This document shows positions 14,698 through 19,832 of a stretch of DNA of 63,460 bases, piece after piece (positions within the stretch are counted from its first letter, which is position 1; every line of letters begins with the position of its first letter). The translations under genes were made by a program, and so were the position numbers. The notes under the pieces are model-generated. The model worked only from the letters and a program-made list of their open reading frames with translations. It had not been told where the DNA came from and made no database searches. Source of the stretch: an uncultured Bacteroidia bacterium (lineage in GTDB: Bacteria; Bacteroidota; Bacteroidia; Bacteroidales; UBA932); NCBI GenBank assembly GCA_902801885.1, contig CADCJX010000013.1, forward strand, positions 1-63,460. Reading direction: 5' to 3'.

Positions 14698-16779
14698 ATG
14701 ATCCCCCAGGAAACCGTACAGAAGATCCTCGATACCGCCCAGATCGAAGAGGTGGTAGGCGACTTCGTGTCCCTCAGGAAGCGAGGGGCCGAATGGTGGG
14801 GATGCTGTCCTTTCCACAATGAAAAGACACCTTCGTTTCACGTCGTTCCAGCCAAGGGTATATACTACTGCTTCGGCTGCCACAAGGGTGGCTCGGCCGT
14901 AGGCTTCGTCATGGAGCATGAACACATGTCCTACCCGGACGCCCTGCGGTACCTCGCCAAGAAGTACAACATCGAAGTTGTCGAAGAGGAAGAAAGTGCA
15001 GAGGACATCGCTGCCCGACAGCGGAACGAGAGCCTGATCCTGGTCTCCGAATATGCAGGGAACTTCTTCAGGGAACAGCTTAAATCCGGCGAAGGCAAGG
15101 CAGTGGGTCTTAACTATTTCCACACCCGCGGCCTGGAAGATGCGACCATAGAGAAATACGGACTGGGCTGGGCCCCTTCTGACAGGCATTCCTTTACCGA
15201 TGCTGCCAAGGAGAAGGGTTTCAAGGATGAATATCTCCTCGAGACAGGTCTCTGTGCGCAATATGACGGGAGCGAAAACCTTCACGACAGGTTCGTAGAG
15301 AGGGTCATCTTCCCCATCCACTCTGTGAGCGGCAGGGTGATTGCTTTCGGAGCAAGGACCCTGAAATCCAAGGAAGACGGGAAGCCCTACGCAAAGTACG
15401 TCAATTCGAAAGAAAGCTCCATCTATGTCAAGAACCAGTCCCTTTACGGAATCTGGTTCGCAAAGACAGAGATGGCCAAGAAGGATAAGTGCTATCTCGT
15501 CGAAGGCTATCTGGACGTCCTGTCGATGCACCAGCTGGGCATTACCAATGTGGTAGCCTCCAGCGGCACGGCATTGACTGAAGGCCAGATCAGGTTGATC
15601 GGCCGCTTCACCAGGAACGTCACCATCATGTATGACGGCGACCCAGCAGGAGTCAAGGCCGCACTCAGGGGAATAGACATGTTCCTTAGGCAGGGTATGG
15701 ATGTCAAGGTGGTCCTCCTTCCGGACGGAGACGATCCGGATTCATATTCAAGGAAGCATACCCTTGAAGAAGTCGAGGACTTCCTCTCCGGTGCCGAGCA
15801 GGATTTCGTGGATTTCAAGAGCTCGCTCCTTATGGAAGATGCGGCTGGAGATCCGCTGAAAAGGGCTGCCGTGATAAATGACATCGCCGACACGGTGGCT
15901 GACATTCCCGACGCTGTCAAGAGAGAGACTTACATCGACTTCCTGAGCCGGAAGTTCGACATCCGGCGCGATGCCTTGGAGGAACGTGTCGGCTCCACAA
16001 GGTCTAAAAACATCATCGCAGAACGTAAGGCGGCTGAACGTCGTTCGGTCGATGTCAACGTCGGACCTGATGGCGGAGTTAACGCCGGATTGCCGTCCGG
16101 GCTCGGCCGAGTCCATCCTCGCTCCGCTGCGGCTGAGTACGGCCTAAGCCCGGCGGCAACTCCGGCCGAAAATTCGACTGTAGACAATAGTCTGTCGAGG
16201 TTAGAAGAGAACAGAATCATGGCCAAGGCCGAGCGCGACCTCCTCAACTTCATCCTTACCTACGGCACCACAACGCTTGAATTCCAGAGCGATTCAGACT
16301 TCTACACAGAAACTGAAGAAGATAGGGAGACAGTCTTTGACTTCATCGACCAGGCCCTGGCCGGAGACGAAGCCGGTTTCGCCAACTCAGCCTACCGCAA
16401 GACTTACGAAGCATATTCACAAGGCTACTACGACGGCTTCTCACAGGACGAGATAGTCAAGCACATGCTGGACGGAGCGGACAGGACCGTGGCCTACGTG
16501 ACCGCTCAGCTCTCGACCGACGAGCAATACGATCTCTCCATAAAGAACCTGCGTGACGCCATGATGTCCAAGGGATCGTGGCTCACCAAATATGTTCCGA
16601 AAGCGATCCTGGTGTTCCAGGCCTGCCGCCTTGAGGATCAGGAGTATTCCCTGAAGGAAGAACTGAGGAAGGCCCAGACCGTTTCAGACGCAGACAGTGA
16701 ACTCCGGATCATGCAGGACCTTGTCTGCATCCGAAAGGCCATCAAGACCGTCAAGGTCCGCCTTGGCCGTGAGAAGTAG
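14698..16779 (+). CDS. dnaG: DNA primase DnaG
   Basis: 693 residues. It makes RNA primers at the replication fork. The N-terminal zinc domain (CCPFHNEKTPSFHV, YCFGCHKGGSAV) is followed by the RNA polymerase/Toprim core (FPIHSVSGRVIAFGARTL, LVEGYLDVLSMHQLG, MYDGDPAGVKAALRG) and the C-terminal helicase-binding region. Residues ~460-490, between core and C-terminal domain, are encoded by a palindromic repeat that keeps the frame open; the same repeat family is found in metG. Without that insertion the length is normal. The stop codon lies 2 bases from the end of the convergent gene. Confidence 0.97.
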   Translation: MIPQETVQKILDTAQIEEVVGDFVSLRKRGAEWWGCCPFHNEKTPSFHVVPAKGIYYCFGCHKGGSAVGFVMEHEHMSYPDALRYLAKKYNIEVVEEEESAEDIAARQRNESLILVSEYAGNFFREQLKSGEGKAVGLNYFHTRGLEDATIEKYGLGWAPSDRHSFTDAAKEKGFKDEYLLETGLCAQYDGSENLHDRFVERVIFPIHSVSGRVIAFGARTLKSKEDGKPYAKYVNSKESSIYVKNQSLYGIWFAKTEMAKKDKCYLVEGYLDVLSMHQLGITNVVASSGTALTEGQIRLIGRFTRNVTIMYDGDPAGVKAALRGIDMFLRQGMDVKVVLLPDGDDPDSYSRKHTLEEVEDFLSGAEQDFVDFKSSLLMEDAAGDPLKRAAVINDIADTVADIPDAVKRETYIDFLSRKFDIRRDALEERVGSTRSKNIIAERKAAERRSVDVNVGPDGGVNAGLPSGLGRVHPRSAAAEYGLSPAATPAENSTVDNSLSRLEENRIMAKAERDLLNFILTYGTTTLEFQSDSDFYTETEEDRETVFDFIDQALAGDEAGFANSAYRKTYEAYSQGYYDGFSQDEIVKHMLDGADRTVAYVTAQLSTDEQYDLSIKNLRDAMMSKGSWLTKYVPKAILVFQACRLEDQEYSLKEELRKAQTVSDADSELRIMQDLVCIRKAIKTVKVRLGREK
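16084..16166. repeat. In-frame palindromic repeat inside dnaG
   Basis: The left arm (16084-16109, starting GCCGGATTGCCGTCCGGGCT) and right arm (16140-16166, ending CCCGGCGGCAACTCCGGC) are imperfect inverted copies around ~30 bases. The right arm shares CCCGGCGGCAACTCC with the repeat in metG. It encodes an Ala/Gly/Pro-rich segment ending in GLSPAATPAE, located in the linker before the helicase-binding domain. Confidence 0.8.
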
Positions 16780-17618: not shown

Positions 17619-19832
17619 ATGGAAAAGAATTTCAAGAGAACGCTTGTGACATGTGCGCTGCCGTACGCCAACGGTCCAGTGCACATAGGCCATCTGGCCG
17701 GAGTCTATGTGCCCGCTGACATATTCGTAAGATACAAGAGGATGAGGGGCGAGGACGTCCTGTTCATCTGCGGCTCGGATGAGCACGGAGTGCCGATCAC
17801 GATCAAGGCCAGGAACAACGGAGTAACTCCACAGGACATAGTGGACAAGTATCACGGCATCATCAAGGATTCCTTCACAAGGCTCGGAATCAATTTTGAC
17901 ATATATTCCCGCACCACCTCCAAGGTGCATGAGAAGAATGCTTCGGAGTTCTTCCGTGAGCTCTACGACAAGGGTAAATTCATCACCAAGGAGAGCGAGC
18001 AGTACTACGATCCCGAGGCCAAGACCTTCCTGGCAGACCGCTACATAGTCGGCACCTGCCCCAAGTGCGGCAATCCGAACGCCTACGGCGACCAGTGCGA
18101 GAAATGCGGAAGCACCCTCAGCCCTGAGGAACTGCTGAATCCGAAGTCGAAACTCAGCGGTGCCGAACCCATAAAGAAGAAGACCACCCACTGGTACCTT
18201 CCACTTGACCAGTACGAGCCCTGGCTCAGGGACTGGATCCTCGAGAACCACAAGGAGTGGAGGTCCAACGTCTACGGCCAGTGCAAATCCTGGCTGGACG
18301 GAGGCCTTCAGCCCAGGGCAGTCAGCCGCGACCTTGACTGGGGCGTGCCCGTGCCCGTGGAAGGTGCTGAGGGCAAGGTCCTCTACGTCTGGTTCGACGC
18401 CCCCATCGGTTACATTTCCAACACCCAGGAACTCCTGCCGGAGAGCTGGGAGAAATGGTGGAAGGACGATGAAACCCGCCTGGTGCATTTCATCGGAAAG
18501 GACAACATCGTCTTCCACTGCATTGTGTTCCCGTCGATGCTCAAGGCCCGTGGAGGCTATATCCTCCCGGACAATGTCCCTTCCAACGAGTTCCTGAACC
18601 TCGAGGGCGACAAGATCTCCACTTCACGCAATTGGGCCGTCTGGCTCAATGAATATGTGGACGAGTTCCCCGGCCAGGAGGATGTCCTGCGCTACGTACT
18701 CTGCGCCAACGCTCCGGAGACAAAGGACAACGACTTCACCTGGAAGGACTTCCAGCAGCGCAATAACAGCGAACTGGTGGCTATCCTGGGCAACTTTGTC
18801 AACAGGGCTGTCGTCCTGACCCAGAAGTATTTCGGCGGCAAGGTGCCTGCAAACCTGAAGCCTGAGGCCATAGATGCTGAGACCCTGGCCCAGATTCCGG
18901 AGCTGCGCCGCAGCCTTGAGGCCAATCTCGATGGATTCCACTTCAGGGAAGCCCTGAAGGATGCCATGAGCATAGCCCGCGTGGGCAACAAGTATATCTC
19001 CGACACGGAGCCGTGGAAGGTGGCCAAGACCGATATGGACAGGACCGCTTCCATCCTCTACACTTCCCTCCAGATCTGCGCCAACCTGGCCATCGCTTTC
19101 GAGCCTTTCACCCCGTTCTCTGCAGAGAAGCTTCGCGGGATCCTGAAGGTGGGCCTGGATGCCGGATTCGACCATCGCGCCGGCGAGGGCGAGCCTACGA
19201 TCAATTTCTTCAAGCCCGGCGAAAGCCGTGCACTCCACACCATAGCCGGAGTGCCGTCCGAGACCGGCCTTAACCCGGCGGCAACTCCCTCAGATAAACC
19301 TGTGTTCTGCTGGGACGATCTGGGAAAGGCGGACCTGCTGCCGGTGGGACACGAGCTCGGAGAAGCCGTACTGCTCTTTGCCAAGGTCGAGGACAGCGTG
19401 GTTGAAGCCCAGGTTGCCAAACTGAATGCCACGAAGGCCGCCAACGAGGCTGCAGCCAAGGAAGCTGCTGCCAAAGAAGCAGCATCCAAGGTCGAACCCC
19501 AGAAGCCCGAAGTCACATTCGAAGACTTCGGAGCAATGGACATCCGTACTGCAACCGTCCTTGAGGCGGAAAGGGTCCCCAAGACCGACAAGCTCCTCAA
19601 GCTCACGATCGACACAGGCATCGACAAGAGAACGATCGTTTCCGGAATCGCTGAATATTATTCCCCTGAGGACATGCTCGGCAAGCAGATCTGCATCCTT
19701 GCGAACCTCAAGCCAAGGAGCATCCGCGGCATCGAGTCCAAGGGAATGATCCTTATGGCAAAGCAGGGCGACGGAACAATGCGTTTCATCACCCCGCAGG
19801 AGGTCGTAACAAATGGCGCCGTCATAGGTTAA
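17619..19832 (+). CDS. metG: Methionyl-tRNA synthetase with C-terminal tRNA-binding domain
   Basis: 737 residues. It charges tRNA-Met. The class I signature is [16 protein letters not shown] with HIGH at ~20; the second signature is the KISTS form ([11 protein letters not shown]); a zinc knuckle is at [18 protein letters not shown]. An anticodon-binding helical domain spans ~380-540. Residues ~620-737 are an EMAP/Arc1p-like tRNA-binding domain ([36 protein letters not shown]) reached through an Ala/Lys-rich helix. Between the two lies an in-frame palindromic repeat coding for [17 protein letters not shown]. The stop codon lies in a hairpin that ends the gene. Confidence 0.97.
19245..19289. 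repeat. In-frame palindromic repeat inside metG
   Basis: A compact member of the family seen in dnaG: left arm GCCGGAGTGCCGTCCGAGAC at 19245-19264, right arm ending CCCGGCGGCAACTCCC at 19289. It encodes [15 protein letters not shown] in the linker after the anticodon-binding domain. Confidence 0.75.

Follow-up and report, generated by a model that had tools for sequence, protein, structure and literature searches.

Does the long palindrome within the primase gene of this uncultured Bacteroidia bacterium belong to the protein, or is it a piece of DNA that entered the gene? A sequence-only reading of the locus had described an inverted repeat of about 83 bases in dnaG. We could place its limits exactly, at positions 16084-16166 of the window (the whole stretch of DNA analyzed, 63,460 nt), where it runs from GCCGGA to TCCGGC and consists of 27-nt arms flanking a 29-nt core. 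The features of dnaG and its element are as follows.

14698..16779, + strand: dnaG, DNA primase, the host gene, 693 aa (open reading frame; Pfam zinc ribbon, DNAG_N, Toprim and DnaB_bind)
16084..16166, + strand: full-length 83-nt palindromic element (covariance model R1, 95.2 bits, model positions 1-83)
16084..16110, + strand: left arm, 27 nt (fold; family pairing pattern backed by covariation)
16104..16108, + strand: CGGCC, left copy of a direct repeat spaced 36 nt (repeat-spacing analysis)
16111..16139, + strand: conserved core, 29 nt, GTCCATCCTCGCTCCGCTGCGGCTGAGTA (alignments)
16140..16166, + strand: right arm, 27 nt (fold; covariation of the family pairing)
16140..16144, + strand: CGGCC, right copy of the 36-nt direct repeat (repeat-spacing analysis)

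Folded as single-stranded DNA, window positions 16075-16185 reach -30.9 kcal/mol (z = -3.87), and none of 200 dinucleotide shuffles folded as well. The element starts on a dnaG codon boundary, in agreement with the earlier proposal of an in-frame insertion, and together with the next base it encodes DnaG residues 463-490 (28 residues), AGLPSGLGRVHPRSAAAEYGLSPAATPA. This insert is located downstream of the Pfam-matched region, which ends at residue 424, and precedes the C-terminal helical part predicted by AlphaFold2 to start at about residue 499. In the same model, computed from 27 aligned sequences taken from the window and from fetched loci, residues 454-497 have a pLDDT below 50, while the three adjoining ten-residue blocks on each side average 76-92. 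A search of the PDB with the element peptide gave no match.

The earlier reading had also pointed out that metG, further along the window, shares CCCGGCGGCAACTCC with the right arm of the dnaG repeat. The sharing is real: the two sites are the two exact matches to this 15-nt word in the organism's own genome (2.46 Mb, 31 contigs, 99% complete). A further nine places match with two mismatches, against six for a reversed-pattern control, and at least two of the nine are true copies of the element (C1:257511 and C6:150476; C numbers denote contigs of the own genome, L numbers fetched loci and G numbers sampled genomes of the genus). As the sole probe for the family, the word was rejected because it barely rises above the control, and the whole element is required. 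Searching the own genome with the whole element gave 12 places at E <1e-5, including the query, and a covariance model built from 74 sequences (R1) identified 11 full-length copies at E 1.1e-13 or better, so that the proposed search for further copies came out strongly positive. All 11 lie within protein genes, encoding DnaG, an HHH_3 protein, RsmF, GH31, GH2, AtpG, a U32 peptidase (two copies), a PmbA/TldD protein, a transglutaminase-like protein and PurH, a count that is by itself no evidence of a preference for genes, as it leaves coding density out of account. In the ten host proteins that were scanned, the open reading frame (ORF) that reads through the element is the one with the Pfam domains. 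R1 gave three weak matches as well, at C8:13524 (E 0.008; a decayed copy in a ferredoxin-type protein), at C6:109452 (E 0.12) and in metG (E 0.17). Together, these data leave little doubt that a repeat family exists and resides in frame in genes.

The match in metG reaches 19.8 bits (E 0.0043) when only the window is searched, and its alignment to R1 accounts for the word shared with dnaG.

17619..19832, + strand: metG, methionyl-tRNA synthetase, the second host gene in the window (open reading frame; protein name of L129)
19245..19291, + strand: decayed element with arms retained and 36 nt of the core gone (R1 alignment with a 36-position gap)

The two genes share the word because metG carries a copy of the element after a frame-preserving 36-nt deletion of the core, which has left an in-frame stub of 16 residues. 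At similar metG flanks, L080, L129 and L145 have intact copies, and both orientations occur among them; the L129 protein, named methionine--tRNA ligase, has its intact element between flanks similar to those of metG. An identical 36-nt core loss, again with the arms retained, is present in the GH2 gene of the sister genome G072. The deletion is bounded by direct repeats, CGGCC or a close form, and takes out 12 codons. Of the 167 distinct copies, at least 71 have a CGGCC-type repeat with 36-nt spacing as the longest repeat flanking the core.

Within the genus, at least 19 of 151 genomes (the own genome included) have an R1 match at E 1e-4 or better, with from at least 1 to 28 matches per positive genome; these are lower bounds, as the scan used stricter filters and scored 30 candidates per genome. 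In an order-wide sample of 295 genomes from 183 genera, with 15 candidates scored per genome, there was no R1 match at 1e-5 in the 294 genomes besides the own one, and one other genome of the genus within this sample was likewise without a match. A scan of named species genomes with a core pattern matched at least 114 stretches; among the matches listed, all 114 record titles name a Bacteroidales or Bacteroidia bacterium, and the rumen, omasum or abomasum was the source of many. The dnaG copy had no match among 72,556 plasmid and 50,697 phage records, and the core pattern was not found in viral contigs. The element thus probably represents a dispersed, non-autonomous palindromic repeat family which, as far as sampled, is confined to one Bacteroidales genus.

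Across copies the 29-nt core is near-constant; the 74 sequences of the alignment were chosen by a pattern inside the core, and the own-genome copies, which were not so chosen, have the same constant core. The arms vary and do so together. Among 122 distinct copies (126 minus two cut by a contig end and two duplicates), the left arms have a mean positional identity of 54%, and the mean local score for arm complementarity is 15.6 with the own partner, compared with 7.7 for the arm of another copy and 6.3 for shuffled sequence. The best-scoring right arm is the true partner in 69 of the 122 copies, and at most two arms score better in 99. In the arm structure, double-change cells number 303, where shuffles average 114, and 80% of cells are paired, compared with 62% in shuffles; none of 500 shuffles reached either value. 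The paired percentage leans to the commonest subfamily, from which this structure was drawn by hand. Less can be drawn from the count of pairs that show a double change at all (21 versus 19.0 shuffled; 14 of 500). Shifting the partners by 1-3 columns clearly lowered the paired cells, the double-change cells and the covariation score, and had little effect on double-change pairs (18-21) or on pair types (54-74 versus 75). The modelled structure has 23 pairs around the 29-nt core, with a core stem of four continuous pairs, and the termini GCCGGA/TCCGGC are common among copies. Run on the mixed alignment, RNAalifold recovered the inner stem only, we think because bulges differ between subfamilies.

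Some copies have a small palindrome of 24 nt, like CCCTTCGACTTCGCTCAGGG, nested in their core (L174 and L256). R1 matches of 107 nt in G090, G146 and others are copies of this kind, and in the DnaG of G090 the nested palindrome adds, for example, ALRQAQDG.

We next counted reading frames in the fetched loci from L012 on, which hold the 167 copies that are distinct by 150-nt context; ORFs here are longest ORFs, taken without gene prediction. Fully within an ORF of at least 200 aa lie 142 copies, and 25 do not. The 142 are distributed over five frames (65, 39, 26, 6 and 6 copies) with none in the sixth, which is open in only 3 of the 167 because the core holds a TGA in that frame. The 59 copies of the most frequent arm type, GGCCTAAG, leave three frames open (each in 55-58 of them) and have the remaining three closed throughout; the 50 of these copies that lie in ORFs all use the open frames (29, 20 and 1). 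One DNA element is accordingly read as differing peptides depending on frame: RVHPRSAAAEYGLSP, LRPYSAAAERGWTRP, GRTQPQRSEDGLGR, ESILASLRLSTA and AVLSRSEARMDSA. Since several frames are used, conservation is of the DNA and not of the peptide.

The host proteins cluster into 42 families. When 30 host representatives were scanned against NCBIfam, 25 matched at 1e-10, many of them under the curated cut-off; the best matches include FtsK, TruB, beta-galactosidase, TldD, AtpG, a ParC/GyrA-type topoisomerase subunit, AtpB, IspE, MetG, PriA, PurH, KsgA (at two different sites), YgiQ and an ORF with a methionyl-tRNA formyltransferase part. Several of these genes are usually essential. No clear split gene was seen among the 25 copies outside long ORFs, of which L070 is ambiguous and L038 (at 2259) a doubtful match. 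One arm type, CGTCGGCCCCTGCAGGGCACGG (L038, L039, L053, L054 and L055; G020, G083 and G093), occurs outside long ORFs only, among the fetched copies.

Strong covariation of the arms is also what a functional RNA or regulatory structure would leave, with arms and core acting as bidirectional terminators or mRNA-stabilizing hairpins. Four intergenic copies (L078, L085, L140 and L276) are situated as bidirectional terminators would be, with convergent ORFs ending 10-21 nt from them on either side. Most copies that were read, however, lie within ORFs, on either strand and in several frames, and an Rfam scan of five loci gave no family at the gathering threshold, which makes such a role highly improbable.

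Comparison with relatives shows sites with and without the element. Thirty dnaG loci of the genus were fetched, of which 27 were readable (in the other three the ORF was antisense). Five of the 27 DnaG proteins have the element peptide (the own protein, L173, L174, L175 and L177), L176 shows just a short motif, perhaps a remnant, and the other 21 are without it, including the fairly close L178, L180 and L182; the segment is thus absent from most of these relatives, as the in-frame insertion had led one to expect. For AtpG, 4 of 30 loci have an element-like peptide and 25 do not; that of G072 has a probable remnant. Residues 73-103 of the AtpG copy have a pLDDT below 50 (AlphaFold2, 19 sequences). 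In alignments, both insertion places are linkers that vary in length and composition across relatives, so these are not clean empty sites. Such variation is what one would see if the palindrome were a chance feature or an ordinary low-complexity linker, a reading that we dismiss almost entirely: other copies in the own genome, in genes unrelated to each other, match at the DNA level with E values down to 2.8e-30, which refutes it.

In the protein-level comparison of all loci, among the matches listed, many relatives have near-zero extra residues at the site. Examples of filled and empty sites are KsgA in L255 and L116, with flanks 92% and 88% identical at the nucleotide level, and a LytTR-type regulator with the element in G072 and an empty site in G000. 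No near-identical empty site was found at the sites examined, where the edges are fuzzy by several codons, so that neither the precise length of the insertion nor a target duplication can be read from them. As to the classical features of miniature inverted-repeat elements (MITEs), the terminal GCCGGA/TCCGGC is common, and there is no exact empty site from which to read a target duplication.

At about half of the sites shared by several species, the element occurs in both directions. In 143 pairs of copies at orthologous sites, 82 have the same orientation relative to the gene and 61 the opposite one; mean element identity is 0.88 for same-orientation pairs, 0.79 for opposite pairs and 0.71 for random pairs (95th percentile, 0.89). 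Two or more copies are present at each of 30 host sites (101 copies in all), and both orientations occur at 16 of these, open and in frame. Element identity is at least 0.90 in 16 opposite pairs, which fall at 8 sites and are not independent, and at least 0.95 in 8 pairs at 6 sites. In the remaining 45 of the 61 it is below 0.90, with a lowest value of 0.49, and some of the opposite pairs may reflect separate insertions into one permissive loop. The clearest case is PmbA/TldD in L090 and L130, in which the element is identical at 83 of 83 positions yet inverted, in loci that are 92% identical over 2.5 kb. The dnaG element itself is 98% identical between the own genome and its sister G072 after inversion, and in L074 and L151 an inverted element is 96% identical and of an arm type private to the two. 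In the 16 best pairs, 15 to 31 arm positions fit a joint inversion of arms and core, against 0 to 3 that read as uninverted (none in 4 pairs, one to three in 12). Counting from the element end, inversion can first be recognized mostly at 6-8 nt, and in L052 versus L146 at the very end. Mis-assembly is an unlikely source of these orientations, given that usual reads are longer than the element and that both versions keep the frame.

Could the element be flipped by an enzyme? In one reading, a resident REP-associated tyrosine transposase (RAYT) would mobilize it in trans, the flips being excision and reinsertion; inversion nearly to the element ends in the best opposite pairs fits this. Genes of the RAYT type are widespread in the genus: of 61 sampled genomes, 47 have a PF01797 match, 40 of them over the cut-off. 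The own genome has two, and both proteins resemble an NCBIfam REP-associated transposase at scores below its cut-off. All nine element-bearing genomes of this sample have such a gene, compared with 38 of 52 others (Fisher p = 0.10). Against this, in 20 stretches (about 3.6-6.4 kb) around RAYTs from seven element-bearing genomes no copy adjoins a RAYT; the sole copy in them, L256, lies about 2.8 kb away and is interrupted by a 24-nt insert. Beyond these stretches, copies lie 3-4.5 kb from three other RAYTs (G017 C95, G042 C5 and G042 C25). Of eight RAYTs inspected by eye, six are flanked on either side by strong hairpins distinct from the element, whose core they lack. We therefore regard mobilization by a RAYT as unlikely. 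The RAYTs with their own hairpins on both sides are those of L238, L240, L242, L247, L254 and L255; L239 has one on one side, and L241 is unclear.

DNA inversion inside a coding sequence is reportedly a way to vary coding, as in the intragenic invertons of Chanin et al. 2024 (cited in PMC11868660). The inverton arrangement, inverted repeats around a segment found in both orientations, is present here between species, at 16 of the 30 shared sites. In favor of such an inverton, reversible within populations and selected for switching a 28-residue segment of its host, both orientations are open and in frame at shared sites, and the whole unit is inverted in 16 close pairs at 8 sites. But with one assembly per species the inversion is seen between species only; the hosts are mixed, with many housekeeping enzymes; the arms are not one conserved recombination site; and the peptide lies in a low-confidence loop in the two proteins modelled. 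Selected switching is thus very unlikely. Unlike intragenic invertons, the present case is a repeat family. We give somewhat more room, as a long shot, to live in-frame invertons spread across housekeeping enzymes and flipped within populations by an activity specific for the element ends. Were this true, a 28-residue segment of DnaG, MetG, AtpG and others would be swapped between two or more open versions, amounting to reversible, genus-wide protein variation.

The evidence favors instead a model in which the element is probably a non-autonomous DNA hairpin that host proteins tolerate as a disordered linker, and in which replication errors driven by the hairpin reshape it. Insertion would be roughly indifferent to frame and orientation, and selection would purge copies that bring a stop or frameshift, leaving tolerated linker peptides and not a useful peptide; disorder prediction for such linkers covers two proteins, DnaG and AtpG. 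After insertion, the hairpin would be remodelled in place. Strand switching where it meets the replication fork may both homogenize the arms and invert the element, and slippage at the hairpin may produce the 36-nt deletion. For replication errors as the means of remodelling we see the case as evenly balanced: strand switching should place crossovers at varied arm positions, but in most of the best pairs the inversion appears to reach as far as about 6-8 nt from the ends, which would also suit an enzyme acting there.

The best-known in-frame palindromes in coding sequence are those of Rickettsia and Wolbachia, and some other bacteria have intragenic REPs, going by the relevant sections of three articles (PMC10969869, PMC4224334, PMC3733652). 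Rickettsia palindromic elements (RPEs) are described there as short in-frame palindromes in unrelated protein genes (PMC10969869, PMC3733652), and the present family, too, is a palindromic repeat in frame in many unrelated protein genes. RPEs are about 150 bp long and belong to Rickettsia, whereas the present element has 83 nt and occurs in another phylum; each RPE family is characterized by one conserved peptide in the account consulted (PMC10969869), whereas the present family uses five frames. Also unlike RPEs, it has one common core and subfamilies with different covarying arms; opposite orientations at orthologous sites are documented for the present family. We therefore do not file it as an RPE, since it lacks the one-peptide feature, and treat it as a separate Bacteroidales family that works like RPEs, a comparison made by description and not by sequence. 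Wolbachia palindromic elements, in the part of the source dealing with them, are in-frame palindromes in the housekeeping genes addA, addB and priA, nearly all without premature stops (PMC4224334). The present family likewise has a copy in a priA-like gene (L168); the Wolbachia regions are longer, at about 170-840 alignment positions, and their host is unrelated to the present one (PMC4224334).

GTAG and CGTC REPs are palindromic and in part intragenic, in several other species, and CGTC repeats are a class of palindromes in Bacteroidetes other than the present family, according to the portions of PMC3733652 that treat them. CGTC repeats have no linked transposase, and the RAYTs of the same genomes are not flanked by them (PMC3733652); the present element is similarly not found beside the RAYTs of its own genomes, and so differs from GTAG REPs, which flank a RAYT gene, in the 20 stretches described above. 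GTAG and CGTC REPs are 20-40 bp long, with stems of 5-13 bp and a tag, compared with 83 nt and 23 modelled pairs here, and the definition of CGTC REPs given in the same portions (stem 8-9 bp, loop 4-5 nt, CGTC tag and tail; PMC3733652) does not describe the present element, in which the word CGTC occurs in part of the copies only and CGAGTCC in others. In further contrast to these REPs, most copies of the present element that were read lie within ORFs.

In line with the sequence-only reading, which had called such repeats undescribed for this group, a literature search of open-licence articles found nothing on such a family in Bacteroidales; it also found nothing on flipped, both-open orientations or multiple-of-three deletions in such elements. 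That reading was right about the in-frame insertion and had not seen the covarying arms, the five frames, the in-place inversion or the 36-nt core deletion. Sister species of these gut bacteria offer filled, partly decayed and empty sites of a well-sampled family, which allows comparative tests of insertion, protein tolerance and decay. The family is also a warning that a linker peptide can be parasitic DNA and not function.

Finally, we observed an in-frame repeat of another kind, with words like CGAGCGAAGCGAG, which encodes LRSAPPLAPLRSAPVPPLV in RsmF (G000, L291:1772-1934; G072, L310:1692-1854). Over this 163-nt stretch, the G072 version is 93% identical to that of G000 but inverted. About ten further matches occur in G000, G033 and G072, and the PurH gene of G072 (L303) has a similar second repeat where the own genome has the 83-nt element. 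The window also contains a perfect 19-nt inverted repeat, AAAGGAGGCTGTCGCCCCC, at positions 1783-1801 and 1923-1941, its two halves lying 121 nt apart.
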